DNA from: Acidobacteriota bacterium
GTDB taxonomy: Bacteria; Acidobacteriota; Blastocatellia; RBC074
Assembly: GCA_016196035.1 (NCBI GenBank)
Contig: JACPYM010000131.1
Coordinates: 1-53,653, forward strand
DNA: 53,653 nucleotides
Direction: 5' to 3'
Positions 7,537 through 34,116 of the stretch are shown piece after piece. A program made the position numbers and the translations under genes. Every line of letters begins with the position of its first letter. The first letter of the stretch is position 1. The notes under the pieces were generated by a model. It worked only from the letters and a program-made list of their open reading frames with translations. It searched no databases and had not been told where the DNA came from.

Positions 7537-7579
7537 GGCTGGCGGCCTGGGTATTCCACAGTCCATACCCGGAGAGCAA

Positions 7580-7612: not shown

Positions 7613-7711
7613 AGAGATTGGCCCTCGCTGATCTCTCCGCGTCCCGGCTGTATCGCCTTGGTTGCGGCGGTGGCCACGCGACGAGCGTTCCAGACAGCCC
7701 GACAGAAAACA

Positions 7712-14611: not shown

Positions 14612-14657
14612 GCATAAGCTTGCTAGCGAGCCAAACCGGCTCGTGGACTGATTGACT

Positions 14658-17967: not shown

Positions 17968-18069
17968 GCAAGTCTACTACAACGCCAGTTGATCGTATTA
18001 ACCTTCCCCGAGCCTAGGGGTATAACGCTCCAACTTGCATCACGTTACTTAGAAATAAAGGAGACCACT

Positions 18070-19488
18070 ATGCCAACTCTCGATCCCATTCTTTTCTGGA
18101 ACGACGTCGCCCTCGAAGCCAATCGCGTCAGCCATACCAATGGCGCGAAAGAGCAGACCGGGCCACCTCTGAGCGCGCGCGCGCTGGCGGTTGTGCATCT
18201 GGCGATGTACGACGCCTTTGCCGCCGTCGCCAATGATCCGGCCAACTTGCCGGCTTATCTGACGGGGCTACCTGCGCCGCCGCCCGGGGCTGCGCTTGAG
18301 GCAGCGGTGGCGGGCGCGGCGCATACGACCTTGTCCGTTTTGTTTCCGAGCCAGAAAGCCTTCTTCGATTTGCGGCTGGCGCAGGCGGGCAATGTGCTTG
18401 ACGTAGGCCACGCGTTTGGCGTCACGGTCGGCAAAGCCATGCTCGACGAACGCAAACTCGATCCGGGCGTGGAAGCCAGCGGGTATGTCGTCTCGGAAGG
18501 TCGCGGCAAGCACCGGCCCGATCCCGACAATTCGGATCAAGGCATTCACGCGCCGTTTTATGGAGCCAAATCGCGGGGCTTCGCCATCACCAAACGCCAC
18601 GAACTCAAGCCGCCGCCCTTTGACGACAACGACTATCGTCAGGCGCTGCGCGACGTGCGCGGCAAAGGCATCGCGCCGGAGTTGATGGGCACACTACCGG
18701 CGGGCATTGACGCGCGCACGCCGGAAGAAACGGTCATCGGTTTGTTCTGGGGCTACGACGGCGCGGCTGAACTGGGCACACCGCCACGGCTGTACAACCA
18801 GATCGTGCGGGTGCTGGCGCTCAGCAAGAACAACACGCCGGCTGAGAACGCACGGCTCTTCGCGCTGGTCAACACGGCGATGGCCGACGCGGGCATTCTG
18901 GCGTGGGATCAGAAATACATCCATGAGTTGTGGCGTCCGGTCGTCGGCATTCGCGAACACGACACTTCGTTTGGTCCGGCGGCCACGACCGGCGCCCACG
19001 AGATCGCAAAAGAAGGCGATCCGGGCTGGTTGCCGCTAGGCGCGCCCGCGACCAACTCGAAAGGCAAAAACTTTACGCCGAATTTCCCGGCTTATCCGTC
19101 GGGCCACGCGACCTTCGGCGCGGCGGCGTTGCACGTCACGCGGCTCTTTTACGGGGTAAAAGACCGCAAAGCCGACAAGCTGTTTGACGGCCTCACTTTT
19201 GTTTCGGAAGAGCTGAATGGCGTCAACAAGGACAATCACGGCACCGTGCGCCCGCGCCATGTCCGCAGCTTCCCGGACGGCCTGTGGCAGATGATCGAAG
19301 AGAACGGGCGCAGCCGCGTGGATTTGGGCGTGCACTGGGTCTTCGACGCCTTTGCCGTCAAAGGCGGCAAACCCGATCTCACCAAAAATATCGGCGGTGT
19401 GCTGCTCGGCCTGACCATCGCTGAAGACATCTTCAATGGCGGCAGGGCCAAGGGGTTGAAGAAATCCCCGGTCGGGCCGCGCGCGTAA
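18070..19488 (+). CDS. Vanadium-dependent haloperoxidase / PAP2 family protein
   Basis: 472 residues, soluble and all-helical by sequence. The phosphate/vanadate pocket motifs are PSGHATFG (Pro343-Ser-Gly-His346) and GVHWVFDA with His422, the candidate vanadate-coordinating residue. PGWLPLGAPATN and YPSGH spacing fits the chloroperoxidase-like family. Such enzymes oxidise halides with hydrogen peroxide to hypohalous acid. There is no signal peptide. ATG 18070 is chosen for AGGAG at the right distance and for the family N-terminus (LDPILFWNDVALEANRVSHT). It opens the group of oxidative enzymes extending to 30303. A plain PAP2 phosphatase activity cannot be excluded from sequence. Confidence 0.85.
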   Translation: MPTLDPILFWNDVALEANRVSHTNGAKEQTGPPLSARALAVVHLAMYDAFAAVANDPANLPAYLTGLPAPPPGAALEAAVAGAAHTTLSVLFPSQKAFFDLRLAQAGNVLDVGHAFGVTVGKAMLDERKLDPGVEASGYVVSEGRGKHRPDPDNSDQGIHAPFYGAKSRGFAITKRHELKPPPFDDNDYRQALRDVRGKGIAPELMGTLPAGIDARTPEETVIGLFWGYDGAAELGTPPRLYNQIVRVLALSKNNTPAENARLFALVNTAMADAGILAWDQKYIHELWRPVVGIREHDTSFGPAATTGAHEIAKEGDPGWLPLGAPATNSKGKNFTPNFPAYPSGHATFGAAALHVTRLFYGVKDRKADKLFDGLTFVSEELNGVNKDNHGTVRPRHVRSFPDGLWQMIEENGRSRVDLGVHWVFDAFAVKGGKPDLTKNIGGVLLGLTIAEDIFNGGRAKGLKKSPVGPRA

Positions 19489-19496: not shown

Positions 19497-19531
19497 CAGA
19501 CCAGCCGTCACGCCACGCGGCGGTTGGTCTG
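19497..19531 (+). terminator. Stem-loop after the haloperoxidase gene
   Basis: CAGACCAGCCG (19497-19507) pairs with CGGTTGGTCTG (19521-19531), allowing one G-T pair, 8 bases after the stop codon. No strong T-run follows, so termination would be partial. It may also be a processing hairpin between two cotranscribed genes. Confidence 0.4.
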
Positions 19532-19568
19532 CGTCAGACAAACATTTTCTAGTTTCCCAGGACTTCCC

Positions 19569-21248
19569 ATGCAAAGACGCTTTTTCAGTACGCCTGCCGC
19601 AATTCCCGTAACCGCGCCCACATTAGCCGAGGCGTTGCATGCCGCCGCGCCCAGCGAGGCCTTTCTGCCGCGCCACGATCCGCCGTTGGAACCGCGCGAC
19701 GACGCCGTTTTTTTGCTAACGGCGGCGGCAGAAATCGAACACGCCTTAATGGTGCAATACCTCTTCACCGCTTACTCGCTGTGGGTGGACAACCCTAGCC
19801 TGACCGCCGAGCAGCGAGCCAAGCTAAGCGACTTGCAGGGTACCGTGATCGGCATCGCCCAGGAAGAGATGGCGCATCTGCTGACGGTGCAAAACCTCTT
19901 GCACCTGCTGGGCGGGCCGCTCAATTTCAATCGTGAGCAAGCACCCTACGCCAGTGAGATTTATCCGTTCCGCTTTAAGCTCGAAGCGCTCACGCTGGAC
20001 TCGCTGGCGAAATACGTCTTAGCCGAAAGCCCGCTCGAATGGCCTGCGGACATTAGCGCCGACGAGCGCGCGGACATCGAGCGCCGCGCGTTACGCTCCA
20101 ATGAGGACACGCCCGTGCGCCATGTCGGGCCCATCTTTGCCAGCCTGCAAGCCTTGTTCAAAGATCACTTGACCGACGCCGATTTCCGCCTTGATACCCT
20201 GGGGTTACAAGGCGGCGACGATTGGGGCAGCGACCCGCTCATCGTGCGCACGTTTGGCGGCGCGGACGTGGCACAAGCGCGGCAAGCTGCGCTGGCGGCC
20301 ATCGCTGACATCGCGCGCCAGGGCGAAGGGCACGAAAATCAGCCCAAATCGCATTTCGAGCGGTTTCTCGACAGCTTCCGCGTCTTCAAAGAATTGTCGG
20401 GTGGCGGACGGCAATTAACCTGGCCAGTGGCGGAAAATCCGAATACGACGACGGCGCGCGAAGTCAGGGGCAGCGGCGCGCCCGTGCTGGAAGCCTTGGC
20501 CGAGGCCCACGAGCGCAAGGGTCGCATCACCGACGCGCGCGCCAAAAACTGGGCGCATCTATTCAACTTGCGTTACCGGCTGTTGCTTGCGCACTTGTCG
20601 CATTATTTGCGGCTCGATCAGTCGCAAGCGCCCGCTCTCGGCACCCAACGCGAGAAACTGCGGGACTGGACGTTTAACGAGATGGTATCGCGGCTTGGCC
20701 CCATCGCCCGCCAGCTCGTGCAAATGCCCAAAGACGACCCGCCGGGCAAGTACCACGCCGGGCCGCCGTTTGAATTGCCCTACACGCTGAATCTGCCGCA
20801 ACGCGAGACCGACCGCTGGCGCATGCAATTGGACGTTGCCAAAGCCGCGCAGGCGCTGGCGCAACGCATGGTGAACGACGGCGAAACTGGCGCTGTGCTG
20901 TCGGGCTTGCTGGATGCGGACGCGCAGCAAGAGTTGGCGGATTTGCAAGCGCTCGCCGCCGGCCATGATCCCTTCGCGGGAGGCGGCGGTGGAACCGGCG
21001 GCGGCAACCCAGCGCCAGCGCCACTCAGTTTTGCCGCTGACATCAAAGACTTGTTTCGTGCCAGGGATCACACCGCCATGCTCGCGCGCGGCCTCGACCT
21101 GCATGACCACCAGCAGGTGTCCGCCCAGGCCGCTGAGATTCTCGCGCGCGTGACTGACGGCAGCATGCCGTGCGACAGCGCCGGGCGTTGGCCCCCTGAA
21201 CGAGTCGCCAAATTCCAGCAATGGATTACCGACGGCAAACAATCGTGA
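19569..21248 (+). CDS. Ferritin-like (VioB N-type) protein
   Basis: 559 residues. The N-terminal half is a four-helix ferritin-like domain of the iminophenylpyruvate dimer synthase type. Helix 1 is TAAAEIEHALMVQYLFTAYS (Glu55, Glu57, His58), the second ligand helix is AQEEMAHLLTVQNLL (Glu99, Glu100, His103), and QGEGHE near 255-260 supplies more ligands. These EExxH-type residues suggest a di-iron site. The C-terminus (from about 490, after a Gly-rich linker) has FRARDHTAMLARGLDLHDHQ and DGSMPCD, a small domain seen at the end of various oxidative enzymes. RebD/VioB relatives couple indole-pyruvate imines; this protein's reaction is unknown. AGGA precedes the ATG. Same strand as the haloperoxidase. 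Confidence 0.8.
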   Translation: MQRRFFSTPAAIPVTAPTLAEALHAAAPSEAFLPRHDPPLEPRDDAVFLLTAAAEIEHALMVQYLFTAYSLWVDNPSLTAEQRAKLSDLQGTVIGIAQEEMAHLLTVQNLLHLLGGPLNFNREQAPYASEIYPFRFKLEALTLDSLAKYVLAESPLEWPADISADERADIERRALRSNEDTPVRHVGPIFASLQALFKDHLTDADFRLDTLGLQGGDDWGSDPLIVRTFGGADVAQARQAALAAIADIARQGEGHENQPKSHFERFLDSFRVFKELSGGGRQLTWPVAENPNTTTAREVRGSGAPVLEALAEAHERKGRITDARAKNWAHLFNLRYRLLLAHLSHYLRLDQSQAPALGTQREKLRDWTFNEMVSRLGPIARQLVQMPKDDPPGKYHAGPPFELPYTLNLPQRETDRWRMQLDVAKAAQALAQRMVNDGETGAVLSGLLDADAQQELADLQALAAGHDPFAGGGGGTGGGNPAPAPLSFAADIKDLFRARDHTAMLARGLDLHDHQQVSAQAAEILARVTDGSMPCDSAGRWPPERVAKFQQWITDGKQS

Positions 21249-21498: not shown

Positions 21499-22890
21499 AT
21501 GCCTCTTCCTATCCTAACCACCCCTTTAACCTGGAAAAGTACAGACCCGAATGTCGTCGCGCTGTTTGACGACCTTCAGGCGAATATTCTCAAAGGCCAC
21601 GGGCGTGACCATACCATCAACTTGTTCCTGCAGTTCGACCCAGCCAAACAAGTCCCCATCAAGGCGGCCATTCACCAACTGAGCGGCCAGCTCAAGACGG
21701 CCAAGCAGCAGTTGCTCGAAGCTGAGGACTTTAAGACATCGAAGAAGGATGGCGGCACGGTGCGTTGCTTCCTGCTGACGTTCGCCGGGTATCAGAAATT
21801 AGGGGTGGCCGCCAAGGCGCCGCCAACACTTGCCGGTTCCGCTTTCCAGGCGGGCATGAAGGCGCGCACGGGAATTCTCAAAGACCCCGCTCCGGCCACC
21901 TGGGATGCCCATTTTAACAGTGAGATCCACGCCCTGCTGCTGCTGGCGGATGACAACACGGAGCGTCTCAACGCTGACCGCGATAGTGTCGTAGCTTCGC
22001 TGGAAGCAGTGGGCGTAAAAGTCTTGGGCGAAGAGCGCGGGGATCAACAACGCAACAGCCGCGGCGATGGGGTTGAGCACTTCGGCTATGTGGACGGACG
22101 CAGCCAGCCCCTGCTGCTGACGGAAGATGTTGACCGCGAAAAAGCCCTGACTGACGGTACCTCCATGTGGGACCCGGCGTTTCCTGCCGAGCAAGTGCTG
22201 GTGACCAACGCCGGGGTTCTCCTCGGCAGCTTCTTTGTGTTCCGCAAACTGGAGCAGAACGTGTTCGCGTTCAAACGCAAGGAGGAGGACTTGTCCACGG
22301 CGCTGGGTCTGACGGGCGATGACCGGGAACTGGCCGGCGCAATGATGGTGGGCCGCTTTGAAGACGGCACGCCGGTGGTGCTCCGTAAAGAAGCTGGCAT
22401 CGGGGGCGATGTGCCCAACAATTTCAACTACAACGACGATCTGGCGGGAGTGAAGTGCCCCTTCCATGCGCATATTCGCAAAACCAATCCGCGTGGTACC
22501 GGCGGCGGCGAACCGCAACCCGCCGAACGCGGCCATATTATGGCGCGGCGCGGGATCACCTACGGCGAGCGCGAAGAAGGCCTGGGCGACCGCCCGGAAG
22601 AGAAAGTCGGCTTGCTCTTCATGTCGTATCAAAAGAACCTGGAGAATCAGTTCGAGTTCACACAGCAGACCTGGGCGAACAATCCCGGCTTCCCCATCGG
22701 CCCGGTGCCGCCGCCCGGCATTGACCCTGTGATCGGCCAAGGCGTAAACCCGCCGGGTACCCAGCAGACGCCGCTGCATTGGGGCGATCCGGCCACCGCC
22801 AAGACGCCCAGCAATTTCGCAGGCTTTGTCAAAATGAAAGGCGGCGAGTATTTCTTCGCGCCGGTCATTAGCACGCTGCGAACTTTGTAA
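21499..22890 (+). CDS. DyP-type heme peroxidase
   Basis: 463 residues. The dye-decolourising peroxidase signatures are present: FGYVDGRSQP, with catalytic Asp199 in the GxxDG motif, and PFHAHIRKTNPR with the probable proximal haem His325. The N-terminus has VVALFDDLQANILKGHGRDH, typical of DyPs of this longer type. The C-terminal half carries GLLFMSYQKNLENQFEFTQQ and ends GGEYFFAPVISTLRTL, as in the family. No Tat or Sec signal and no encapsulin-targeting tail are evident. GGAG sits upstream of the ATG. It would oxidise bulky substrates with hydrogen peroxide, matching the peroxide-using haloperoxidase nearby. The 250-bp gap before it holds a small AACCCC/GGGGTT hairpin near 21361-21380. Confidence 0.92.
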   Translation: MPLPILTTPLTWKSTDPNVVALFDDLQANILKGHGRDHTINLFLQFDPAKQVPIKAAIHQLSGQLKTAKQQLLEAEDFKTSKKDGGTVRCFLLTFAGYQKLGVAAKAPPTLAGSAFQAGMKARTGILKDPAPATWDAHFNSEIHALLLLADDNTERLNADRDSVVASLEAVGVKVLGEERGDQQRNSRGDGVEHFGYVDGRSQPLLLTEDVDREKALTDGTSMWDPAFPAEQVLVTNAGVLLGSFFVFRKLEQNVFAFKRKEEDLSTALGLTGDDRELAGAMMVGRFEDGTPVVLRKEAGIGGDVPNNFNYNDDLAGVKCPFHAHIRKTNPRGTGGGEPQPAERGHIMARRGITYGEREEGLGDRPEEKVGLLFMSYQKNLENQFEFTQQTWANNPGFPIGPVPPPGIDPVIGQGVNPPGTQQTPLHWGDPATAKTPSNFAGFVKMKGGEYFFAPVISTLRTL

Positions 22891-23019: not shown

Positions 23020-24276
23020 ATGTCTGAATATGACGATAAATATGGTCCGTACCCGATGCGCATCCAAGTAATGCCGGGGTCTGAAGCGGAGTACCGTCAC
23101 TATCGGGCTGCGGCGCGGCACAGTGACGAACGCCTTGAGCGAGAGGCACTGGCGCCTGGCGTCACCGCTTCACCACAGGACGATCTGCTCTTTCGCGGTG
23201 GGAAGACTTTACCGCAGATGGGCTTCCAAAACGTCTACCTGGGGCACTCTAGCGACTTTGCGCCAGGTGATGTGGAGTCCATTGACGATGCCATTACGCG
23301 TCTGATGCGTGACGAACAACTCAAAAGTATCATCCAGCAATACTTCCCTGGCAAAACGCTGTCCTATGACATCGCGCCATCGGTCATACTGGAGGAATCC
23401 AGGCCAAACGAGATGGATGAGCCGGATGTCCAGAACAAGCTTATCGAATTGTTCGACCGTAATCTCATTCTGGGCAGCGACCACGATCGTACCTGCTTCA
23501 ACTTAGTGCTCCCGCCGGACACAGTGCTAAGGTTGAACGGCTCCAGTTCACTGTCCGGGCTGGGCGGTTATCACGGCTCGGTACATTTCTTCCGTAATGG
23601 CCAGACGCAAACACTCTATTACTCGGCCAACGCCTACTCCGCGATCCGCGCGGGCCGCCGCAATGGCATCCCGTTCTTCAACACTCCGTGGAAGAACGTC
23701 GTATGCACGTTGTACCACGAGTTGATCGAGTCCCAGACGGATCCGGACGTTGGTGATGCCATCCGCCAGGGCGACCGGCGCTTCATCGGCTTCAACTCCG
23801 GTCGTGGTCAGGAAATCGGCGACCAGCCTATCTCGGCCAACTCCTTGGACAAAGTTTTCAAAGAGGTGCTCACGCTGCCCGGCCCGCGCCCCACACCTGT
23901 CCAATTCATGTACTCCAATGCGGTGCATGGTGCGGAGGGGCCAGCCGAAAAACCGCCGCAGGAACTCGTCATCAACGGGCCGGCGATCCAAGGGGAAATA
24001 AGCGTCGGGGGCGAGCGTGACCTTTATGCGTTTAGAGTGACGACCGCAGGGCGGTATGCGATTGAGACTTTCGGAAATACGGATACCTTCGTGAGTCTTT
24101 TCGGTCCGAATAGCCAGGCACGTCTGATCGCAGAAGATGACGACAGTGGGCCTGGGACCTTGTCATTGCTGGTTCAGAATCTGACGGTCGGCCAGTATTT
24201 TGTCCGGGTTCGCCATTTTAGTCCGTCAAGTACGGGCCCCTATGGAATCTCGGTACGGTCAATCGCCGCTGCCTAA
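23020..24276 (+). CDS. HELIE zinc-site protein with C-terminal PPC domain
   Basis: 418 residues. Residues 225-270 contain LYHELIESQTDPD (His233, Glu234, Glu237, Asp241) and GRGQEIGD (Glu265, Asp268). This resembles the HELxExxTDP...GxEIGD pattern of EXORDIUM/PHI-1-like proteins, so a metal site is plausible though it is not a classical HExxH. Residues about 320-415 form a pre-peptidase C-terminal (PPC) beta-sandwich: IQGEISVGGERDLYAFRVTT, DTFVSLFGP, LTVGQYFVRVRHF. PPC domains usually sit on secreted proteins, yet no signal peptide is seen. GAGGAGG precedes the ATG. It lies between the DyP and the LodA-like gene, on the same strand. Enzymatic activity is unproven. Confidence 0.65.
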   Translation: MSEYDDKYGPYPMRIQVMPGSEAEYRHYRAAARHSDERLEREALAPGVTASPQDDLLFRGGKTLPQMGFQNVYLGHSSDFAPGDVESIDDAITRLMRDEQLKSIIQQYFPGKTLSYDIAPSVILEESRPNEMDEPDVQNKLIELFDRNLILGSDHDRTCFNLVLPPDTVLRLNGSSSLSGLGGYHGSVHFFRNGQTQTLYYSANAYSAIRAGRRNGIPFFNTPWKNVVCTLYHELIESQTDPDVGDAIRQGDRRFIGFNSGRGQEIGDQPISANSLDKVFKEVLTLPGPRPTPVQFMYSNAVHGAEGPAEKPPQELVINGPAIQGEISVGGERDLYAFRVTTAGRYAIETFGNTDTFVSLFGPNSQARLIAEDDDSGPGTLSLLVQNLTVGQYFVRVRHFSPSSTGPYGISVRSIAAA

Positions 24277-24511: not shown

Positions 24512-26173
24512 ATGGCTGAAATTTTGCAGACAATCTTTCTCAATCCGCCCATCGCCATCGCGCGGCTGGGCGACGGCACGACGCCGCAGGAGGCCTACCG
24601 CTGGGTGCAAACGCCCACGCCGCGCAGCCCCGGCGAAACGACGGTCAAACCCGATTGGACACTGGTCGTGCAAACCGACGGTTCGGTCGAACCCGTCATG
24701 CCCGGCCAGTTGAACTTCCGCGACGGTGCGCTGATTCGTCCGGTATGCCCGTTTTTCGAGTTGTGGGCGCTGCTGGGCGAACCGGGCAGCGCGCCCGACA
24801 CCTGGCACGAAACGCCCGTCACGCCCGCTTTGCTCACGCAACACGGCGCGGCGCCGAATGACCTGCTGGTGCGGGTGGACGCGCAAAACCTGAAAGCCGC
24901 GCGGCGGACGTTCGACCCCGCAATGCGCTTCGGCACCTTTCCGCCGGTCGAAGTGCGCGGCGACAATCACGCCGTCGCGCCCTTGCTGGCCGTCTCGCCG
25001 CCGGGCGTGCCCGCCGCCAATCGCCTGATTCCCGCCGGACGCAACATCCCGCTGGGCGCGCTGCAAGTCATGCGCAGCCGTCCGCAACCCGCGCCCGGCA
25101 TGACCGCGTGGAGCGCAGAAGTTAACGTCGAAATCATCCGCGTGCGCTTCACGCCCGCGCGCGGACGGTTTTACGGGCCGCCGGACGCCGCGACGCCGCA
25201 CGTGCCGCCGGGCGCCGCGACGGCGTTCCCGCTGGTCGAAGCCAACCGCGCCTTTTTGAATCCGGGGGCGTCCTGGGTAGGCGCGAATGCGCAAGATCAA
25301 GCCATTGATCAGCCTTCCGACACTTACGACGGCGCCGATGTGGGAACGAACGTCTCGTTGGGCGTGGTGGACGACACCTGCGAAGCGCGGTTGGAATTCA
25401 CGCTGGCGCTGCCCGGCGGACGCACGCTGGCGGCGCACGCGAATGTCTTCGTCGCGCCGCCGGATTTCGCGCCCGACCGCCGCCCGTTTTTATCGCTGGC
25501 CGATGAATTGAACGATTGCGTGGGTGCCGCCGCCGCGCGCAACGCGGGCCTCGACGCGGCCCAGCGCGACGCCTGGGTCGAAGACCTCTTCGAGCGCATT
25601 TATGAAACCGTGTCGCTGTTCAACCTCGATCACTGGCGCGCGGCCAATGCGATTCAGTTGACGCCGGGCCAACAAGCGGCGACGCCGATTCCGCTGGACG
25701 GCGTGCCGCAGCCGCGCCGCGCCATGGGCGGACGAGATGCTTTGCGCAACCGCGACTTCGCGCTGCCCGCCGTCACGGCCAACGCGCCGCTGCCGCTGAC
25801 CGAACACGCGCGCGCGCGGCATCGCTTCCTTTCCGACCTGGAGGCCTTGCGCGATCTGGTGCTGCAAAAGCCGGAGCGCCTCGCACAACTCGTGCGGCGG
25901 CCCTTCGAGGCCGAAGCCGGAGAGGGCTTGCGCCGCACCACCATGCGCATGCCGCCGTTTATGGCGCAATCCACCCCTGCTACGCCGCTCACGCTCGCCG
26001 CCTGGCAATACGATTTGCTGATGGCCTGGGTGGAAGCGGTCAAACTGACGCCGATTCCGTTGGCTGGGCCGCTGGCGGCGGTGGCCGCTGCCGCACCCGT
26101 GCCGCTTTCGGAGGCCGCCGCCGCGCGCCGCGCCGCTGTGTTAGCGCACCTCGGCGCGGGAGGGCAACCGTGA
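24512..26173 (+). CDS. LodA-like protein lacking an obvious CTQ Cys-Trp pair
   Basis: 553 residues. The start NPPIAIARLGDG (11-22) resembles the LodA/GoxA N-terminus, and MRMPPFMAQSTPATPLTLAA then WQYDLLMAW (about 478-506) resembles the LodA C-terminal domain. LodA family members are amino acid oxidases with a self-derived cysteine tryptophylquinone (CTQ). This protein is shorter than LodA (about 726) and has only three cysteines (79, 290, 336), none in the C-terminal region where the LodA CTQ residues lie. The catalytic cofactor may therefore be missing or supplied by the partner at 27501. AAGGAG supports ATG 24512. The stop overlaps the next start (TGATG), so the operon is translationally coupled. 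Family assignment is moderate. Confidence 0.65.
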   Translation: MAEILQTIFLNPPIAIARLGDGTTPQEAYRWVQTPTPRSPGETTVKPDWTLVVQTDGSVEPVMPGQLNFRDGALIRPVCPFFELWALLGEPGSAPDTWHETPVTPALLTQHGAAPNDLLVRVDAQNLKAARRTFDPAMRFGTFPPVEVRGDNHAVAPLLAVSPPGVPAANRLIPAGRNIPLGALQVMRSRPQPAPGMTAWSAEVNVEIIRVRFTPARGRFYGPPDAATPHVPPGAATAFPLVEANRAFLNPGASWVGANAQDQAIDQPSDTYDGADVGTNVSLGVVDDTCEARLEFTLALPGGRTLAAHANVFVAPPDFAPDRRPFLSLADELNDCVGAAAARNAGLDAAQRDAWVEDLFERIYETVSLFNLDHWRAANAIQLTPGQQAATPIPLDGVPQPRRAMGGRDALRNRDFALPAVTANAPLPLTEHARARHRFLSDLEALRDLVLQKPERLAQLVRRPFEAEAGEGLRRTTMRMPPFMAQSTPATPLTLAAWQYDLLMAWVEAVKLTPIPLAGPLAAVAAAAPVPLSEAAAARRAAVLAHLGAGGQP

Positions 26174-27504
26174 TGCTGACGCTCGCACAATTGCCCGCCG
26201 CGCCCGCCGCGCCGCTCTTCAAACGCTTCACGTCCGCCGTGGGCGAACACCTGCTAATCGTGCCGCATTCGCGCCTTTTCGATGTGCCGCCAGAGTTAGC
26301 GGCGGCCCTCGACGCGCAGACCGGCGACGCGCTCCAACTCGTCGCGGCGCTCGCGCAAACGACGGAGCGCGAAGCCGCGTTGGACGCGGTCGTCGCCCCC
26401 ACGCCGCAAAGCCTCTCGCTCAACGTCAGTGCGAGTTGCAACCTGGCCTGTGCGTATTGTTATGCCGGGCAGGGCGCGTTCGCCGGCGCGCAACCGGCGC
26501 CCATGTCGTGGGACATCGCGCGCGCCGCCATTGATCGGTTGTTCGCCACCGCCGATGCGCAAGCGCCCCTGACGGTGGGCTTCCTCGGCGGCGAACCCTT
26601 CGTCAATCGCGCCTTGATTCATCAAGCGGTGACATACGCCGCCAGCGCAGGGGCGGCGCGCGGGCTGGACGTGCGCTTCGCTGTCACGACCAACGGCACG
26701 CTGTTGAATGACGCGGATGTGGCGTTGCTGCGCGCGCATCGTTTCGCGGTCACCGTCAGCGTGGACGGCGGCGCGGCCTTGCACGATGCGCAACGTCCGT
26801 TGGCGGGCGGGCAGGCGGGCAGCTTCGCGCGGCTGTGCGTGGCGTTGCGGCCCTTGCTGGACGAACCGGGGCAGGCGCTCATCGCCGCGCGCGCCACGGT
26901 CAACCGGCACGATTTCAATTTGCGCGAACGCTTCGCCGCGATTCTGGCGGCGGGCTTTCCCGAAGCAGGCTTCGCGCCTTTGCGCAACGCCGCACCGCAG
27001 GCGGGCGCGCTCGGCGACGCGGACTGGCCGCCTTACCTGGCGGCGCTGCTCGAACTGGCGCAAGCCGAGTTCGCGCGCGCGCTGCAAGGCGAAAACATCC
27101 GGCTGACCAATTTCGCCGTCGCGCTCAAACAACTGGCGCGCGGCGCGAGTTCGCCTTATCCCTGCGGCGCGGGCGGCGGTTATTTCTCGGTCGCGGCCAA
27201 TGGCGACTGGTACGCCTGTCATCGCGCCATCGGCGCGGCGGCTTATCGCCTGGGCGACAACACAGGGCTGGACGCGGCGCGGCGGCAGACGTTCTTGACG
27301 GCGCGGCATGTGCACGCACAGACGGACTGTCAAACTTGCTGGGCGCGCTATCTATGCTCCGGCGGTTGTCATCAGGAAGCCGCGCAGCGGACGGCGGCCT
27401 CCTGCGACTTCGTGCGCGGCTGGCTGGAGTTTTGTTTGCGCGCTTATTGCGAGTTGAGCGCGCAGCGTCCGCAATTCTTTTCATCTTTGGAGGGACAGCA
27501 ATGA
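26173..27504 (+). CDS. Radical SAM/SPASM maturase (QhpD/PeaB-like)
   Basis: 443 residues. The radical SAM cluster motif is CNLACAYC with Cys89, Cys93 and Cys96, followed by GFLGGEPFVN and VTTNGTLL, which are family landmarks for SAM binding. The C-terminal SPASM region (about 325-420) has PCGAGGGYFSVAANGDWYAC, then CQTCWARYLCSGGC and a final Cys before DFVRGW, enough for two auxiliary iron-sulfur clusters. The order and the N-terminal domain resemble peptide-modifying enzymes such as QhpD, which makes Cys-to-Asp/Glu thioethers in quinohemoprotein amine dehydrogenase. The likely substrate is the Cys-rich N-terminal part of the adjacent protein (27501). TGATG and ATGA overlaps at either end tie it to both neighbours. 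The specific reaction is inference. Confidence 0.85.
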   Translation: MLTLAQLPAAPAAPLFKRFTSAVGEHLLIVPHSRLFDVPPELAAALDAQTGDALQLVAALAQTTEREAALDAVVAPTPQSLSLNVSASCNLACAYCYAGQGAFAGAQPAPMSWDIARAAIDRLFATADAQAPLTVGFLGGEPFVNRALIHQAVTYAASAGAARGLDVRFAVTTNGTLLNDADVALLRAHRFAVTVSVDGGAALHDAQRPLAGGQAGSFARLCVALRPLLDEPGQALIAARATVNRHDFNLRERFAAILAAGFPEAGFAPLRNAAPQAGALGDADWPPYLAALLELAQAEFARALQGENIRLTNFAVALKQLARGASSPYPCGAGGGYFSVAANGDWYACHRAIGAAAYRLGDNTGLDAARRQTFLTARHVHAQTDCQTCWARYLCSGGCHQEAAQRTAASCDFVRGWLEFCLRAYCELSAQRPQFFSSLEGQQ

Positions 27505-29219
27505 GCCAACAAGACCCCATCAAATTGATTCCCCGCAATGTCGCCGCGCTGCGGCGCGGCCAAAAACCCGCAGACGCCGCCCGGCTGGTAACGGGCAATT
27601 CCGCCGCCACGCGCCTGGAATCCGGCGTGGGAAATTGCTTCCCCGGCCTGGAATGCGATCTGCGCAATCTGGAGCACCGCTTCTTTCCATTTTTGGAAGT
27701 GGAGATTGTGGGCAACACCGTCGTCATCGTCGCGGTTGAACTGGCGGGCGTGCAAAGCGCTGTCGCGGCGGGGCAATTGACGGCGGCGCAAGGCGCGCTT
27801 TATCAACTCATCGCCAACGACGCCAACAGCGCGAGCCAAACCGCTTGGAGAATCGAGCAATTGAGCGGCACGTTTGTCGGCCAACTCGGCAATCCGCCCT
27901 TCGTCCTGGCAGATTTGAACACGCCCAGCATGGGCGCTGGCCGCCGGCCACCCGATGCCTGGGCGGCCATCCGGCTGCTGGCCGAAGACACGCCCGTCAC
28001 GCTTACGGTGCGGCGCGATGGCGCGGCCACCACGCAAACGCTGACCGGCAACCGCGCGCGTTACCTGGACGACAACGGCGCGCTCGCCCAGATGTTCGCG
28101 CCCGGCGAATTGACGCAGTCGCTGTGCAGCCCCTGGACACACGATTTCCGCGATTGTGGCTGTTATTACTGGGCCGCCAATCATCCAGACATCGCCAAAC
28201 CGCCGTCGCTCACGCCGCCGTCCAATGTGCTGGACGCCAACGCCGATGTGCCCTGGGAACGTGTCAACCGCAATTTGACCCCCGCGCCGACCCACGCCAC
28301 CGCCGCTGCGCCGGCAGAGCTGCGACACTACGAAATCAATACGCTCTGGCAGACGCTCAACTTCGTGCTGGAAGGGCGCGAGTTGCTCGGCCCCTACCAG
28401 CCGGGCGCTGTCAGCCCGGCACCGCCCTTTGCCACACAGGCGGAACTGGAAACGCAACTGCGCTATGCCGCCGGTGTCGAACTCGCCGTCATGCACGAAT
28501 ACCTGACGGCGGTGTTTTCGCTGAAAGTGACGGGACTGCCCGCCGCTTTGCGCGATGACGTGACGGCCGCGCGCGCCGAGCTGTTGCGCATCGCCATCGG
28601 CGAGATGCGGCACTTGCGCGCTGTCAACGACGTGTTGGCCGCACTGCCCGCCGCCGCGCCGTTCACGCCGGCTTTGCGCGTGGCGACGAGTGTGCCCGGG
28701 GTACAACCCGGCGCATTTCTCCCAGTGCAGATGCGCCCGGCGCTGCCCGCTGTGATTGATGAGTTCATCGCCATCGAGCAACCGTCACGCTCCGTGGACG
28801 GCGTTTACGCACGCATTCTGGCGACACTGGGACAATTGGGAAGCGACGAGCAAGAGCAAACCATCCGAACCATCATGGCCGAGGGCGAAGATCACTTCGA
28901 GACCTTCCAATTCATCCGGGAATGGCTCGGCAGGCACACTCCCAATGATTACTTGCGCGCGCCCAATCTGGCGCCGCCCCCCGCCGCCAATCTGCCGCAC
29001 CAGACCTTGCAGCAACGTTACCGCACGCTGTTGCAATTGCTCTTCGACGGTTATCGGCTGGGGCTGCCCGCCGGTGCGCCGCAGATCAACGCGGCGCGCA
29101 CGGCGATGCTCGGCCCCACCGGCTTGCAAGGCGCAGCGGAGGCGGTCGCACAAGCGGGCTTTCTGGTGGTCTTTGACGCGCTGGCCGATCCGCGGTTCGC
29201 CCCGCTTAATCACCCTTGA
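27501..29219 (+). CDS. Cys-rich domain fused to a ferritin-like domain
   Basis: 572 residues. The N-terminal ~290 residues are not a standard domain. They carry Cys46 and Cys52 (NCFPGLECDL) and a dense motif at 208-224, LCSPWTHDFRDCGCYYW, with Cys209, Trp212, Cys219, Cys221 and Trp224, followed by AANHPDIAK. Mixed Cys/Trp clusters of this kind are what CTQ- or thioether-forming maturases act on. The C-terminal part (about 315-570) is a VioB-type ferritin-like domain: Glu327, HEYLTAVFSL with Glu333, IGEMRHL with Glu368 and His371, and GEDHFETF with Glu463 and His465. GGAGG precedes ATG 27501, which overlaps the radical SAM stop (ATGA). I infer it is the substrate, or a scaffold whose di-iron domain helps oxidise the crosslink. 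Confidence 0.75.
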   Translation: MSQQDPIKLIPRNVAALRRGQKPADAARLVTGNSAATRLESGVGNCFPGLECDLRNLEHRFFPFLEVEIVGNTVVIVAVELAGVQSAVAAGQLTAAQGALYQLIANDANSASQTAWRIEQLSGTFVGQLGNPPFVLADLNTPSMGAGRRPPDAWAAIRLLAEDTPVTLTVRRDGAATTQTLTGNRARYLDDNGALAQMFAPGELTQSLCSPWTHDFRDCGCYYWAANHPDIAKPPSLTPPSNVLDANADVPWERVNRNLTPAPTHATAAAPAELRHYEINTLWQTLNFVLEGRELLGPYQPGAVSPAPPFATQAELETQLRYAAGVELAVMHEYLTAVFSLKVTGLPAALRDDVTAARAELLRIAIGEMRHLRAVNDVLAALPAAAPFTPALRVATSVPGVQPGAFLPVQMRPALPAVIDEFIAIEQPSRSVDGVYARILATLGQLGSDEQEQTIRTIMAEGEDHFETFQFIREWLGRHTPNDYLRAPNLAPPPAANLPHQTLQQRYRTLLQLLFDGYRLGLPAGAPQINAARTAMLGPTGLQGAAEAVAQAGFLVVFDALADPRFAPLNHP

Positions 29220-29226
29220 GGCGCTT

Positions 29227-30303
29227 ATGTTTCATCCGGATGATTACGACGCTGTCGTGTTAGGAGCCGGGCCGGCGGGGTTATTGGCTGCGTTGGCGCT
29301 CGCGCGCACCCAGCGCACAGCGCTGCTGGCCGACCGGCTGCCTGCCGCGACCGACCCGCCGCGCGTGGAAGCAACCCCGGCGGCTTTGCTGACGCTCTTG
29401 CTGGAATTCGGCCTTCATCCGGCGGAACTCGGCGTGACGCGGCTCTATGAAGCGCGCGTGAGCGCCTGGGAAACGGCTGTGCCGACAACGCAGCCCAGCC
29501 CAGCCACGGCGCATCTCGCAAGACCGGCCTTGGAACTGGCCCTGCTGCGCCGCGCAGCCGCCGCGCCCCGGCTGGACCTCATTCAATGCCGCGTCTCAGC
29601 GCCACTCGTGCGGCAACTCAGCCAAGCCGCCAAACGCGGGGTTCGTTTGCTGGACGCCACCGGACGCCACGCGGTCACGGCCAGTACTCGCACGCAACCG
29701 TCACAGCCCTGGGGAAGCCGCAGTTTTTGGGTCTCAACCAGGGAGTGCCAAGTTGATGGCGCCTTTATGCTGGCGGCGCTGCCAGCAGGCTATGTCTATC
29801 GCCTGGGAACCACTGGCTACGCGGGCATAGGTCTCGTCGGGCGCGGCAAATTGCTGTCGGCGAACGCCCAAGAAATCCAGCCTCAACTCAGGCATTGCGG
29901 GGCGGCCTGGATTCTCGATGGACTGCCCCCGCTTGAACAAATGAGTCAGGGCAAAGCCGCTCCGGCCTCGGTGCAATGGACGGCGGGCGGCCCCGCCTGG
30001 CGGCTGGGCGATGCCGCGCTGGCCCGCGATGCCCTGTCTTCACAAGGTCTCTCTTGCGGAATCTCTGAGGCGTTGTATGCCGCAGCCAAACAGATGCCCC
30101 AAAACGACGGCCTGTTCGCCAGCCGCCAAGCTGAGCAGCGCGCTTTACATCTCCAAGGGCTCGAACAGGTGATCTCGAACTGCCATTACCGCCACCACGC
30201 GGCGTGGAGCAGTTACGCTGATTTCATTCGCAGCCACGCGGCCACCATTACGCGGCACCCCAGCATTGCGCTCAAGGACAATCGCCTCATCCACACCAAT
30301 TGA
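29227..30303 (+). CDS. FAD-dependent oxidoreductase (LodB/QhpG-like)
   Basis: 358 residues. The Rossmann FAD motif is VVLGAGPAGLLAALALART (GxGxxG at 13-18). The second FAD motif is WRLGDAALARDALSSQGLSC, resembling the GDAA...DPLSSQG signature of flavin monooxygenases such as LodB and QhpG and of tryptophan halogenase relatives. LodB and QhpG oxidise the Trp side chain while CTQ is made, which fits the neighbouring LodA-like, radical SAM and Cys/Trp-rich proteins. It starts 7 bp after the preceding stop with GAGG upstream, so it ends the coupled operon. The middle is shorter and more divergent than in classical hydroxylases. Confidence 0.8.
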   Translation: MFHPDDYDAVVLGAGPAGLLAALALARTQRTALLADRLPAATDPPRVEATPAALLTLLLEFGLHPAELGVTRLYEARVSAWETAVPTTQPSPATAHLARPALELALLRRAAAAPRLDLIQCRVSAPLVRQLSQAAKRGVRLLDATGRHAVTASTRTQPSQPWGSRSFWVSTRECQVDGAFMLAALPAGYVYRLGTTGYAGIGLVGRGKLLSANAQEIQPQLRHCGAAWILDGLPPLEQMSQGKAAPASVQWTAGGPAWRLGDAALARDALSSQGLSCGISEALYAAAKQMPQNDGLFASRQAEQRALHLQGLEQVISNCHYRHHAAWSSYADFIRSHAATITRHPSIALKDNRLIHTN

Positions 30304-30453: not shown

Positions 30454-33400
30454 ATGCCGCGCCTTTCGTTGATTTTCATCAAACACTTCATGCTTGCCCT
30501 GTTCGCGCTGAGCCTCTGGTTGAGCTACAGCGAAAGACCAACCGCGACGATCATTTCCGCCCAAGCCCTGCCACCGCTCACTTACGACATTGTCTATGTG
30601 CGCGCGCCGCGTTTCGGCGACAACACCAACACCATCTGGCCCGAAGTCTCGACACCGCTGCTGCCCGAACCGAATGCCGATTTGCTGCTGCTACATCCGA
30701 ATGGCAGCGAAGAAGTCCTCTTCGCCGCCGGAGCGAACGGCGCGGTGGTTGATCCATCTGTTTCGTATGACGCCCGGTCGGTGCTCTTTGCGTACTACCC
30801 AAATGTGCGCAACGTGAATACGCAACGCGCGGGGCGTGATCGCGGGCTGTCACGCGAGGGCGCGGATATTTACCGCATCGAAATCGCCAGCCGCCAGGTC
30901 ACGCGGCTGACCTTTCAGGAATTCACGCCCAACACCGGCAACGGCGCAAACTTTGATTGCACACGCGCAGAAACGAATTGTCCGCAGATTGGCGTTTTCA
31001 ACACCGGCCCCGCGCCGTTGCCCGATGGGCGCATCGTGTTTACCTCGACGCGCGACAACTTTGTGCCCAGCAAGATGTTCAACTCGGCCCAGCGCGTGAT
31101 GCAGCTTTATGTGATGGATGGCGATGGCCGGAACGTGCAGAACATCGGCCATTTGAATCTGGCTTCGGCCCTGCATCCGTTTGTGTTGAAAGACGGGCGC
31201 ATTGCGTTTACTTCGTGGGAAGACATGGGCACGCGCGACGAGCGGGCGTTTACGCTGTGGACGATCTGGCCGGATGGTTCGCGCTTTGAGCCGTTCTCAG
31301 GCTTCGGCGATACGCACTTTGCGCATCATTTCATGACGCAACTCTCGAACGGCGACATCGCCGTCTGCCGTTACTACAATTTCAACACCAACGGCTTTGG
31401 CGAGTTGTATCGCTTCCCCGTCGCACCCGACAGCGCGGCGCTCTTTCAACCGATCCCCAACGACAGCGCGGCGGTAGACGAGATTCCGTTGAAGCGCGTC
31501 GGCTACACGCGGCTGACGCCCTTCACCGATGCCGAAGACTTCCCCGCCCCGTGCCGCGTCGGCGATCCGATCTATCCGCCCGTGCCTTGTCCGAACGGGA
31601 ATGCGAACCGCGTCGGCAAATTCACCCTGCCGTCCGCCGCGCCCAACAATGAGTTGCTGCTGGTTTACACGCGCGGCGCGGCCAATCACAACGGCATTTA
31701 CGTCAATCAAGGCTTGGACACGCCCTATTACGACGGCGGGATTTATCGCATGCGCGGCGATCAGGTGTTGCCACGGCCTGAAGATTTGCTGCTGGTCAAA
31801 AACAGCCCGCAATACAACGAACAATGGCCGCGTGCCGTCGTGCCCTACAAACAAGTCTACGGTGTAGACGCGCCCGCCACTCTGCCCGACCTCAAAAACG
31901 ACGGTGCGCTTGACGCCCGCTTGCCCGAAGGCACGCCGCTCGCCCTCGTCGGCTCGTCCTCGCTGATTTCGCGCGACACGCGCCCCTTCAAAGGCGACCG
32001 CTTTTACTGGCACGAAAACTTTGGCGACCGCAACTGGCTTCAGCAAGGCGCAGACGCGGGCGTGTACAGCGACAATGACATTTACGCCGTGCGCATTCTG
32101 GCAATGCAGCCGATCACCGACCGCAGCTATCCCAACGATTCGCGCGCGTTCAATTCGCACCTCAGCGAACGTGTGCGCATCCTCGGCGAAATCCCCGTGC
32201 ACAAAGAGGGCGTGACGGATGTGCAGGGCAACGTTGACACGTCTTTCCTCGCCAAGATTCCGGCGGATGTACCCTTCACCTTTCAGACGCTCGACCGCAA
32301 CGGCCTCGTGTTGAATATGGCGCAGACCTGGCATCAGTTGCGGCCCGGCGAAGTGCGCAACAATTGCGGCGGCTGCCACGCGCATAGCAAAGCCCCGCTC
32401 GCTTTCGCCACGACCGCCGCCGCGCAGGCGAATTACCAAGTCCGCGATCTCAGCGCCACGACGCCGTTGCTCAACGTTGACGGTTCCAACGCGCCAGGCG
32501 TGACGACGCTCAACAGCAAAACCACGACGCTCGAATACTTGCGCGACATTCGCCCGATCCTGCAAGCCAAATGCGCCACGTGCCACAGCACGCAAGGCGG
32601 ACGCACGCCCGAAGCCGGTTTGAATCTGGACATGGACAACCGCCTGACCAGCGATGGCTATCCGGCAACGTATGCCTGGCTGGCGCGGCCTTACACAGCG
32701 GCCAATTTGACCACGCGCTCGCTCGCGCCCGAAGGCTATTGGTTCTTTCCGCAAGTCACACGCTACATCCGCGCCGGACAAGCGCGGCAGAGTTTGCTGG
32801 CGTGGAAGATTTTCGGCAGGCGCTTGGATGGCCGCGCGAACGCTGACCGCCCGACTGAATTGGTGTCGGGCGATCCGTTCTCGGTGCCCGCGCCCTGGCG
32901 TTTCTTTGAATGCGATTTGGATTTCACCGGCACGCAGATGCCGCCGCCCGGCTCCGGCTTCACGCTGACGTGGGAAGAGCGCATGAAGATTGCGCGTTGG
33001 ATTGATCTGGGTGCGCCGCTTGACCTGACGCAATTCGTTGCGCGCCCCTTTGCCGGTTTCTTTGAAGATGACTTGCGCCCGACACTGGCGCTGACACCGG
33101 CAACCGCGCCCGCCAATAACATGCTCACGCGCTTCGTCATCGGCGCGTATGATCTCGACAGTGGGATTGATCCAACCACGCTTACCCTCACGTTGGATCG
33201 TACTGTCGGCAACTTGGCGGCGGGCGCGAATCTCGCCGCAGGTTTGACGCTGAATGACGGCGGCACCGTGACGATCAATCTGCCTGTGATTATCAACCTG
33301 ACAACCGGGCCACTCACGGCGACGTTACAAATCCGCGACCGCGCCGGACAGACAACGAAACTCGTGCGCACCTATCGCTCGACCTCAGCGCCGCTGGCTG

Positions 33401-34116
33401 TCGCCAATGTATCGGCGGCCAGTTACAGCGCGACGCCGCTCGCGCCCGCCGCCATCATCGCGGCCTTCGGCACGAATCTGGCGAGCGCGACGCAAAGCGC
33501 GAATGCGACGCCGCTGCCGACAACACTCGCGGGCACGACAGTGACCGTGCGCGACAGCGCGGGCGTCGAACGCGCGGCCCCGCTGTTTTTCGTTTCGCCC
33601 AACCAGATCAATTATCAAATGCCGCCCGAAACCGCGCCCGGCGCTGCGACGATCACTGTCGTCACTTCGGCGGGCAGCGTTTCGCAAGGCGCAACGACCA
33701 TCGCCGCCGTCGCGCCGGGACTCTTCGCCGCCAATGCCAGCGGCCAGGGCCTTGCCGCCGCGTTGGCCCTGCGCATTCGCGCCGATGGCACACAAAGCTA
33801 CGAGGCGATTGCGCGCTTCGATCCGGCGTTGCAACGGTACGTCGCGCAACCGATTGATCTTGGCCCCGCGAATGAGCAAGTGTTTTTGATCGCGTTTGGC
33901 ACAGGCTTTCGCTTGCGCAGCGGCTTGGCGGCCGTGAGTGCGCGCGTTGGCGGATTGGAAGCGCCGGTGAGTTTTGCGGGCGCACAGGGCGCGCTCATTG
34001 GCGTGGATCAGGTCAATGTGCAATTGCCGCGCGGCTTAAGCGGTCGTGGCGAAGTGGAAGTGATGTTGTTAGTTGATGGAAAAACTGCGAATGCGGTACG
34101 GATTAACGTCAAATGA
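30454..34116 (+). CDS. Secreted propeller/dihaem-motif protein with TIGR03437 C-terminus
   Basis: 1220 residues. A hydrophobic N-terminus (FIKHFMLALFALSLWLSY) is a likely signal peptide. Residues about 40-560 contain TolB-like propeller strands (DGRIVFTSTRDNFVPS; LKDGRIAFTSW). Next comes a haem-binding part with CGGCH (638-642) in NNCGGCHAHSK and CATCH (707-711), similar in order to the middle of hydrazine-synthase alpha-like proteins. Then TQMPPPGSGF may give an axial Met. Residues about 870-980 look Ig-like, and the last ~235 residues match the Solibacter-type TIGR03437 domain (LAPAAIIAAFGTNLAS; FVSPNQINYQMP; QVNVQLPRGL). It is probably an extracytoplasmic cytochrome-like protein; there is no evidence that it makes hydrazine. 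The Shine-Dalgarno is weak. Confidence 0.82.
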   Translation: MPRLSLIFIKHFMLALFALSLWLSYSERPTATIISAQALPPLTYDIVYVRAPRFGDNTNTIWPEVSTPLLPEPNADLLLLHPNGSEEVLFAAGANGAVVDPSVSYDARSVLFAYYPNVRNVNTQRAGRDRGLSREGADIYRIEIASRQVTRLTFQEFTPNTGNGANFDCTRAETNCPQIGVFNTGPAPLPDGRIVFTSTRDNFVPSKMFNSAQRVMQLYVMDGDGRNVQNIGHLNLASALHPFVLKDGRIAFTSWEDMGTRDERAFTLWTIWPDGSRFEPFSGFGDTHFAHHFMTQLSNGDIAVCRYYNFNTNGFGELYRFPVAPDSAALFQPIPNDSAAVDEIPLKRVGYTRLTPFTDAEDFPAPCRVGDPIYPPVPCPNGNANRVGKFTLPSAAPNNELLLVYTRGAANHNGIYVNQGLDTPYYDGGIYRMRGDQVLPRPEDLLLVKNSPQYNEQWPRAVVPYKQVYGVDAPATLPDLKNDGALDARLPEGTPLALVGSSSLISRDTRPFKGDRFYWHENFGDRNWLQQGADAGVYSDNDIYAVRILAMQPITDRSYPNDSRAFNSHLSERVRILGEIPVHKEGVTDVQGNVDTSFLAKIPADVPFTFQTLDRNGLVLNMAQTWHQLRPGEVRNNCGGCHAHSKAPLAFATTAAAQANYQVRDLSATTPLLNVDGSNAPGVTTLNSKTTTLEYLRDIRPILQAKCATCHSTQGGRTPEAGLNLDMDNRLTSDGYPATYAWLARPYTAANLTTRSLAPEGYWFFPQVTRYIRAGQARQSLLAWKIFGRRLDGRANADRPTELVSGDPFSVPAPWRFFECDLDFTGTQMPPPGSGFTLTWEERMKIARWIDLGAPLDLTQFVARPFAGFFEDDLRPTLALTPATAPANNMLTRFVIGAYDLDSGIDPTTLTLTLDRTVGNLAAGANLAAGLTLNDGGTVTINLPVIINLTTGPLTATLQIRDRAGQTTKLVRTYRSTSAPLAVANVSAASYSATPLAPAAIIAAFGTNLASATQSANATPLPTTLAGTTVTVRDSAGVERAAPLFFVSPNQINYQMPPETAPGAATITVVTSAGSVSQGATTIAAVAPGLFAANASGQGLAAALALRIRADGTQSYEAIARFDPALQRYVAQPIDLGPANEQVFLIAFGTGFRLRSGLAAVSARVGGLEAPVSFAGAQGALIGVDQVNVQLPRGLSGRGEVEVMLLVDGKTANAVRINVK

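Follow-up and report, generated by a model that had tools for sequence, protein, structure and literature searches.

A predicted two-chain LodA-type oxidase from an Acidobacteriota bacterium, probably matured by enzymes of the quinohemoprotein amine dehydrogenase type

A 53,653-nucleotide stretch of DNA from an Acidobacteriota bacterium (contig JACPYM010000131.1; referred to below as the window) carries a four-gene operon that probably encodes a LodA-type oxidase split into two chains, whose cysteine tryptophylquinone (CTQ) cofactor would be matured by enzymes of the quinohemoprotein amine dehydrogenase (QHNDH) type. All four genes lie on the plus strand. Gene A (24512-26173, 553 aa) is predicted to encode the N-terminal half of a LodA/GoxA-type quinoprotein, without the CTQ residues. 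Gene B (26173-27504, 443 aa) encodes a radical S-adenosylmethionine (SAM)/SPASM enzyme that is nearest to QhpD and has a CX3CX2C motif at residues 89-96. Gene C (27501-29219, 572 aa) joins a predicted LodA C-terminal half, carrying the CTQ site, to a PF12902 ferritin-like domain, and gene D (29227-30303, 358 aa) encodes a flavin adenine dinucleotide (FAD) enzyme of the QhpG/LodB kind with GAGPAG at residue 13. Genes A and B overlap by TGATG at 26171 and B and C by ATGA at 27501, while a gap of 7 bp (29220-29226) separates C from D. Purine-rich stretches resembling Shine-Dalgarno sequences precede A, B and C; a promoter scan found 0 promoters (shuffle mean 0.8). These open reading frames (ORFs) and junctions agree with an original prediction, made from the window alone, that had proposed a new cofactor system here. 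Its family labels hold as nearest models (QhpD, QhpG and PF12902), with B and D scoring below the curated cut-offs.

It is very probable, from profile comparisons, that A and the N-terminal domain of C are the two halves of a LodA/GoxA-type quinoprotein. Neither part has a Pfam or NCBIfam model over its cut-off: A gave no Pfam match at an E value of 0.1 and a single weak NCBIfam match, to GoxA, and single-sequence searches of the PDB with A and C returned only rows at E above 1. A profile of A reached GoxA in the PDB at E 1e-3 and LodA at 3e-3 (range 1e-3 to 4e-3), and a profile of the C hairpin found LodA at E 7e-4 among 177,635 PDB sequences. Aligned to 12 ordinary LodA sequences with a 564-residue reference, the A profile covered residues 159-247 (E 5e-12 for one comparison, probability 97.5) and the C profile residues 431-472 (E 1.2e-8 for one comparison). 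By eye, the segment ahead of the CPGIE region of LodA ends A, and the CPGIE region opens C. The two parts also occur as one natural A:C fusion, a 720-aa single ORF in genome G107 (L011/L068), which has a ferritin-like gene before it and the radical SAM and FAD genes after it. PF18417 (LodA_C) matches residues 188-230 of C, over the Cys/Trp motif, with 17-19 bits against a cut-off of 25. The LodA_N model has no match in A of the window; of 7 A relatives, 3 match it when E values up to 1 are allowed. A single chain with LodA_N and LodA_C over their Pfam cut-offs is thus not what the window holds; the parts lie on two genes.

Structure prediction pointed in the same direction for A. The AlphaFold2 model of A, based on an alignment of 7 sequences, had a mean predicted local distance difference test (pLDDT) score of 57. 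In a Foldseek search of the PDB, rows 1-45 of the 50 listed were GoxA or LodA chains (E 2.5e-4 to 0.02), with TM-scores of about 0.2. VIA-align superposed the model on LodA with Z 9.0 over 192 residues at a root mean square deviation (rmsd) of 4.7; the unrelated rows further down reach about half this Z. Just after LodA and GoxA ranks the QHNDH alpha chain 1jju, matched by residues 4-322 of the model with Z 4.4. This value is tied with immunoglobulin folds at 4.3 and was not used; it is a possible second link between LodA and QHNDH.

The original prediction had noted that A is without the Cys/Trp pair of LodA, and had expected the residues to be modified in the protein starting at 27501, that is, in C. 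Both points are supported by the comparison, in which the corresponding LodA region aligns to C. A was also considered as a LodA relative with a cofactor of its own; this was rejected, as A has 3 Cys (79, 290 and 336) and the Cys/Trp region of LodA aligns to C. The N-terminal domain of C had further been regarded as a separate new domain acting with, or on, the LodA-like subunit. The profile comparison and the natural fusion match it instead to the missing C-terminal part of LodA. It should therefore form an enzyme with A, and not act on A.

The quinone hairpin of C extends from Gly202 to Asp230 (28104-28190, plus strand). When compared with the ordinary LodA hairpin by hhalign it scored 62.5, and 0 of 400 column shuffles scored as high. 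In the PDB alignments GELTQSLCSPWTHDFRDC of C pairs with PGDLTKRMACPWQADFFNC of LodA, the final Cys of which is LodA 516, and Trp581 is the second Trp of SYWWPPQ in LodA. The CTQ of LodA is described as formed by Cys516 and Trp581 (PMC4417212). Cys219 of C (codon 28155-28157) corresponds to Cys516 in the alignment to 3weu, and Trp224 (codon 28170-28172) corresponds to Trp581, the second W of YWWP. By this positional match a quinone at Cys219/Trp224 is highly likely. The distance between the CTQ Cys and Trp is 5 in the ordinary LodA relatives with a short hairpin, the same as between Cys219 and Trp224. Trp212 was tried as the quinone Trp and rejected, since it aligns with LodA Trp509 of PWQADF, while Trp224 aligns with the Trp of WWP.

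Seven residues (Cys209, Trp212, Asp215, Cys219, Cys221, Trp224 and Asp230) are the same in all 22 C relatives aligned, which share 25-59% identity with the protein of the window. Some of the aligned rows, e.g. L043-L045, were found through the Cys/Trp motif itself, so that this invariance is partly helped by selection. The Cys and Trp residues of the N-terminal domain, numbered correctly in the original prediction, are thus strictly kept, and the lack of conservation that would have told against that prediction was not observed. All 15 ordinary LodA relatives, several of them closely related to each other, keep the CTQ Cys, the CTQ Trp and the equivalent of Asp215. At position 209 they have Ala, Gly or Val and in no case Cys; position 221 is Cys in 0 of 15, and none has a Cys between the CTQ Cys and Trp. 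Among the residues that the prediction had named for a crosslink, Cys219 and Trp224 are retained as the predicted cofactor pair, whereas Cys209 and Cys221 are instead candidate cysteines for thioethers of the QhpD type.

The candidate thioether cysteines resemble those of QhpC. The hairpins of QhpC from seven genomes read [SN]LCQPMEADLYGC[SA]DPCWWPAQVPD, and the mature protein is described as having thioethers Cys7-Glu16, Cys27-Asp33 and Cys41-Asp49 besides a CTQ at Cys37-Trp43 (PMC8172795). Cys209 (codon 28125-28127) is placed like Cys27 of QhpC, with Asp215 (28143-28145) as its candidate partner, and Cys221 (codon 28161-28163) like Cys41, with Asp230 (28188-28190). Both Cys/Asp pairs stand beside the CTQ pair in 22 of 22 C proteins. 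The spacing is equal for Cys209-Asp215 and Cys27-Asp33, for Asp215-Cys219 and Asp33-Cys37, and for Trp224-Asp230 and Trp43-Asp49; the stretch Cys219-Cys221-Trp224 is shorter than Cys37-Cys41-Trp43. From spacing, invariance and co-occurrence with the radical SAM gene we consider thioethers of the QhpD type in C likely. A profile of 5 of the 7 QhpC sequences found, when aligned to ordinary LodA hairpins, scored 36-37 in hhalign (probability 94), and 0 of 400 and 0 of 300 shuffles scored as high. The first ordinary LodA set comprised 9 sequences picked by a pattern that demands WWP. As such a pattern favours QhpC, the comparison was repeated with the 15 listed sequences, all of which fit a looser pattern. 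These alignments suggest that the CTQ hairpins go back to one origin, chiefly via ordinary LodA.

The genome of the window itself appears to have neither a QHNDH nor an ordinary LodA system. The QhpC model PF08992 had 0 matches in it, in a search in which no control genome matched either (elsewhere the model does match, in 3 of 40 genomes of one sample and in 4 of 249 of another). The heme-binding alpha subunit domain PF09098 likewise had 0 matches, with Thermus composti matching as a control, and LodA_C had no match at E 0.001. The locus shares with QHNDH the radical SAM enzyme nearest to QhpD, the flavoprotein nearest to QhpG and a hairpin of the form LC.P...D...C..C..W followed by PD; it differs in that the hairpin lies in a LodA_C-like domain and has a spacing one residue shorter, and in that no QhpC or PF09098 was found in the genome. 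With LodA/LodB and GoxA/GoxB (PF17990/PF18417) it shares the positions of the CTQ Cys, Trp and Asp and an adjacent FAD enzyme of the LodB/QhpG kind, and the modest model of A comes closest to their fold. In contrast to these systems, there are two genes here, a fused or linked PF12902 domain, two extra conserved cysteines and a radical SAM gene.

B scored 267 bits to the QhpD model TIGR03906, against a cut-off of 453, and is the best of 3 matches to this model in its genome. QhpD is thus its nearest model, but B is not a member. The second-best model, PapB (NF047865, 223 bits), was also below its cut-off. In 5 of 5 further B relatives QhpD was again the best model (255-319 bits) and PapB the second. 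Both QhpD and PapB are described as making Cys-Asp/Glu thioethers (PMC7876137, PMC8172795, PMC9413430). PapB links Cys to Asp/Glu at a CX3D spacing and accepts CX0D to CX6D, the extremes incompletely or inefficiently (PMC9413430). B resembles this ranthipeptide maturase as its second-best model, with Cys-Asp/Glu thioether chemistry and tolerant spacing; it differs in that PapB acts on a short peptide, whereas the putative substrate of B is a large protein domain. A profile of B relatives, built from the window and 8 of the split loci, matched every one of the 25 split loci scored in addition to that of the window, and 0 of 14 ordinary lodA loci. One split locus, L071, was set aside as its contig ends after C. 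Five of the ordinary loci (L079, L080, L081, L084 and L087) are shorter than 10 kb, so that absence of the radical SAM gene is less certain there. In a midpoint-rooted tree of the radical SAM proteins, those of type I loci (defined below) form one group (97/92) and six QhpD another (100/100), with a long branch between them.

D scored 64 bits to QhpG (NF049967, cut-off 240), 32 to GoxB and 20 to LodB, none over the cut-off. It is an adjacent flavoprotein of the LodB kind, though not a member of the LodB model itself. For all 5 flavoproteins tested from type II loci QhpG was the best model, and 4 of the 5 passed its cut-off (238-285 bits against 240), while four type I flavoproteins and D of the window gave 42-98 bits, QhpG still being the best and 0 of the 4 relatives passing. 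As controls, 4 of 4 ordinary LodB proteins had GoxB or LodB as their best model and reached 125-186 bits to QhpG, none passing, and QhpG from a qhp locus scored 406 bits to its own model. The FAD profile matched 22 of 25 split loci and 11 of 14 ordinary lodA loci, and L045 adds an ORF with GGGPAG. QhpG is described as hydroxylating the Trp of QhpC twice, in a QhpCDG complex (PMC7876137). The scores lean to QhpG and the flavoprotein tree to LodB, so that D may work in either of the two manners. That the gene set mixes maturation parts of the LodA and QHNDH systems, as first noted from the window, agrees with these comparisons.

Loci with this gene set were also found in Pseudomonadota, Cyanobacteriota, Actinomycetota and elsewhere in the phylum of the window. 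A scan of genome contigs with C found 8 relatives, from Paraburkholderia, two unassigned Proteobacteria, a Pseudanabaenales cyanobacterium, Ferruginivarius, Streptomyces, an Acidimicrobiia metagenome-assembled genome and Aquabacterium. BLAST at these loci found the radical SAM gene and C in 8 of 8, A in 7 and D in 5. The locus without A (L005) is a 4.6-kb contig that starts at the radical SAM gene, and the FAD profile, made from the five proteins found by BLAST and that of the window, located a FAD gene in all 8. Matches were present in 19 plasmid records, 5 of them covering at least 80% of the query; related genes lie on rhizobial, Nostoc, Mycetohabitans and Streptomyces plasmids, and also in Paraburkholderia and others. 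Within the phylum of the window 4 of 297 genomes matched at E 1e-10, its own included. Three other genome samples gave 2/249, 9/249 and 3/244 matches at E 1e-3. After weak matches to ordinary LodA (L054, L060-L064, L067) were dropped, 1/249, 5/249 and 2/244 had a split C, each count including a genome already known. Among viral contigs 43 stretches matched a pattern, and none encodes a relative.

Counted once per genome and including the window, 27 split loci were obtained. Duplicate loci (L001, L010-L012, L024-L031, L053, L055-L059, L065, L066, L075, L097) and matches to the ferritin-like domain only (L013-L015, L032-L035) are outside the counts, as are the plasmid hits H2, H8, H9, H11, H13, H15, H16, H18 and H19, and L071 was left out where its contig end matters. 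Sixteen loci are of type I, with A, the radical SAM gene, C with a fused ferritin-like domain, and the FAD gene; in L008 and L039 the FAD gene is divergent and upstream. The truncated L005 and the deviating L006, L072 and L073 are also of this type. Eleven are of type II, with A followed by C without the ferritin-like domain, the radical SAM gene and the FAD gene. A was seen in 9 of the 11; L074 has none in 14 kb, and L076 is truncated. Six type II loci (L043, L044, L045, L068, L069, L071) have a separate PF12902 gene upstream of A, and L041 has one beside A on the opposite strand; in L042 none was seen in 12.6 kb, and for L070 and L076 its presence could not be judged. Two loci show further rearrangements. 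In L074 a 433-aa ORF (6652-7950, minus strand) joins the N-terminal part of PF12902 to a LodA_C hairpin, together with radical SAM and FAD genes, and may be a reduced form, a deletion or an artefact. In L038, of type I, the A gene (4043-5677) has a PF12902 domain where its N-terminal part would be. Such repeated rearrangements indicate that the ferritin-like protein is tied to the quinoprotein.

The ferritin-like domain of C, at about residues 309-559 (28425-29177, plus strand), matches PF12902 with 47 bits against a gathering cut-off of 22.3. It was modelled confidently and matched 3hl1 (Caulobacter CC_0557) with Z 21.0 over 224 residues at an rmsd of 2.6. Candidate di-iron ligands, chosen by eye, are Glu327, Glu368, His371, Glu426, Glu461 and His465. 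All are kept in 8 of 9 rows if Asp is allowed at 461; the exception, L009, has lost two. PF12902 genes are reported near fungal lodA/lodB genes, and some LodA proteins are described as fused to catalase-like domains (PMC4417212). Together with the peroxidases encoded in the window, these observations favour a role on peroxide or imine over one in maturation. We give slightly less than an even chance to the ferritin-like domain acting downstream, on the imine product or the peroxide. A comparable pair is VioA-VioB, where the PF12902 protein VioB stands beside an amino-acid-oxidase-like partner. The likeness lies in this placement of a PF12902 domain next to an amino-acid-oxidase-like protein; the difference is that C scores 18 bits to the VioB model, against a cut-off of 1250, and that the partner here is quinoprotein-like. 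Beside an ordinary lodA gene without a radical SAM gene, L090 has an adjoining ferritin-like ORF (7363-8877, minus strand; 17.7 bits).

Taken together, the four proteins suggest the following scheme. A would supply the N-terminal body of the oxidase and the N-terminal domain of C its C-terminal part with the quinone hairpin, so that A and C rebuild a LodA-like enzyme. B would first join Cys209 to Asp215 and Cys221 to Asp230 by thioethers, caging the hairpin as QhpD does in QhpC. D would then hydroxylate Trp224, judging by its family, and Cys219 and Trp224 would become CTQ in C. By analogy to LodA and GoxA, the mature enzyme would oxidise an amine or amino acid and release hydrogen peroxide, and the PF12902 domain might perhaps act downstream on the imine product or the peroxide.

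Several observations weigh against this scheme. The model of A is weak in both pLDDT and TM-score, and the notes to VIA-align call Z 7-8 a common best value. The LodA_C score in the window is below the curated cut-off, as are the NCBIfam scores for QhpD and QhpG. In the model of C the hairpin has low confidence (block pLDDT about 30-40), and nearly all PDB rows listed are ferritin-like, so that this model does not confirm the fold of the C half; as ferritin rows fill the list, the missing LodA and QHNDH are no evidence either way. The spacings Cys221-Trp224 and Cys219-Trp224 are 3 and 5, against 2 and 6 in QhpC. The QhpC pair Cys7-Glu16 is without a strict counterpart (position 46 is Cys in 17 of 22 C relatives and position 51 is Glu in 22 of 22). 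Aligned directly, the QhpC and split hairpins scored only 18 in hhalign, a value that 11 of 400 and 9 of 400 shuffles also reached. Asp at position 230 also occurs in 5 of 15 ordinary LodAs, and none of the ordinary lodA loci scored held a radical SAM relative. The radical SAM gene of L006 lies about 3 kb off on the other strand. In 14 kb of L072 and of L073 no FAD gene was recognised, and 14 kb of L074 are without an A gene. Finally, in the flavoprotein tree the type II proteins form a group with ordinary LodB (94/92) and the single QhpG stands outside, a result at odds with taking the model scores as a sign of QhpG, and the D profile found a FAD gene in 1 of 6 qhp loci.

Some of these points would fit a split LodA that receives its CTQ in the ordinary LodB manner, while the radical SAM enzyme makes some other bond (e.g. 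at Cys46/Glu51, or a cyclophane) or has another substrate. C has the complete set of Trp, Cys and Asp known from the LodA site, D also scores to the GoxB and LodB models, the type II flavoproteins fall with ordinary LodB in the tree, and the QhpC and split hairpins align weakly. However, the two extra cysteines are seen with the radical SAM gene and are absent from ordinary LodAs, the scored loci of which had none, and the two best radical SAM models of B are makers of Cys-Asp/Glu thioethers. We regard this explanation as unlikely. Still less probable is that C is a structural protein or one like a radical SAM-modified, ribosomally synthesised and post-translationally modified peptide, with A as a scaffold and without a quinone. 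Several models near B are peptide maturases, and no activity of the system is known, but the positions of the CTQ Cys, Trp and Asp of C coincide with those of LodA, and a flavoprotein of the QhpG/LodB type is found nearby in 22 of 25 loci by profile. The sporadic distribution, a handful of genomes per sample (4/297 in the phylum of the window; 1/249, 5/249 and 2/244 elsewhere), could be that of a lodA operon in decay after a mutation had divided it. Such a remnant is hardly credible, since the frames are open, the starts overlap and the residues are strictly kept in several phyla.

A different question is raised by the proposal that the ferritin-like domain takes part in maturation, as a built-in di-iron oxygenase responsible for the first hydroxylation of Trp224, in place of the autocatalytic step of LodA; apart from the ferritin step this is compatible with a split LodA matured by QHNDH-type enzymes. 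All 16 type I loci have the domain fused to the quinone chain, which is how the type is defined, and 8 of 11 type II loci have it either as a separate gene or fused; its carboxylate/His set is conserved, and two loci are without a recognised FAD gene nearby. Against this, the PF12902 neighbours of fungal lodA/lodB and the catalase-like LodA fusions described in PMC4417212 suggest a role on the product, and L009 is without two of the candidate ligands. We therefore find a part in maturation rather doubtful.

Other genes of the window surround the operon. The third gene upstream of A encodes a stand-alone PF12902 protein (19524-21248, plus strand), which may be associated with A-D. It shares 35-40% identity over 434-501 positions with proteins of L043, L044, L045, L068, L069 and L071, and where the split loci searched have full-length relatives of it, these are the ferritin-like genes that stand apart in type II. 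Upstream of it, 17989-19488 encodes a vanadium-chloroperoxidase-like protein (PF17897, 78 bits), and on the Nostoc plasmid of L038 a relative of this protein with 38% identity is encoded upstream of the split LodA genes. A DyP-type peroxidase (21499-22890) is located between this second ferritin-like gene and A, with relatives at 3 of 26 loci compared (L002, L037, L038). The gene immediately upstream of A (23020-24276) has a weak PPC-domain match, and L002 has a relative of it (48% identity, 304 aa) in the same position. Further away are a fungalysin-type M36 metallopeptidase (14652-16679; PF02128, 203 bits) and, downstream of D, a 1220-aa protein (30454-34116) with a match to the middle domain of hydrazine synthase alpha, weak cytochrome c matches and a Solibacter C-terminal domain.

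No report of a split LodA, of a LodA-like protein with a radical SAM enzyme, or of a system of quinone, radical SAM enzyme and ferritin was found among the titles and abstract openings listed in full-text searches, which covered few subscription journals and for some topics showed a part of the matches. The cofactor, proposed as new in the original prediction, is most simply CTQ; what is new is the split architecture and the proposed maturation route of a putative CTQ quinoprotein with a ferritin-like partner. Known tryptophylquinone systems are described as convergently evolved (PMC7876137). The operon appears to combine two routes of making CTQ that were thought to be separate, and a LodA-type scaffold with QhpD-like and QhpG-like enzymes and QhpC-like cysteines would connect them. 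Tentatively, the CTQ sites of LodA-type oxidases and QHNDH might share one ancestor, of which split LodA would be a surviving intermediate with a QhpD-type Cys-Asp thioether cage, QhpG-type dihydroxylation and a built-in ferritin-like catalyst. The natural split into two chains may ease studies of CTQ assembly, and the system could reveal what role the thioether cage has for the quinone and whether the dehydrogenase route can mature an oxidase.

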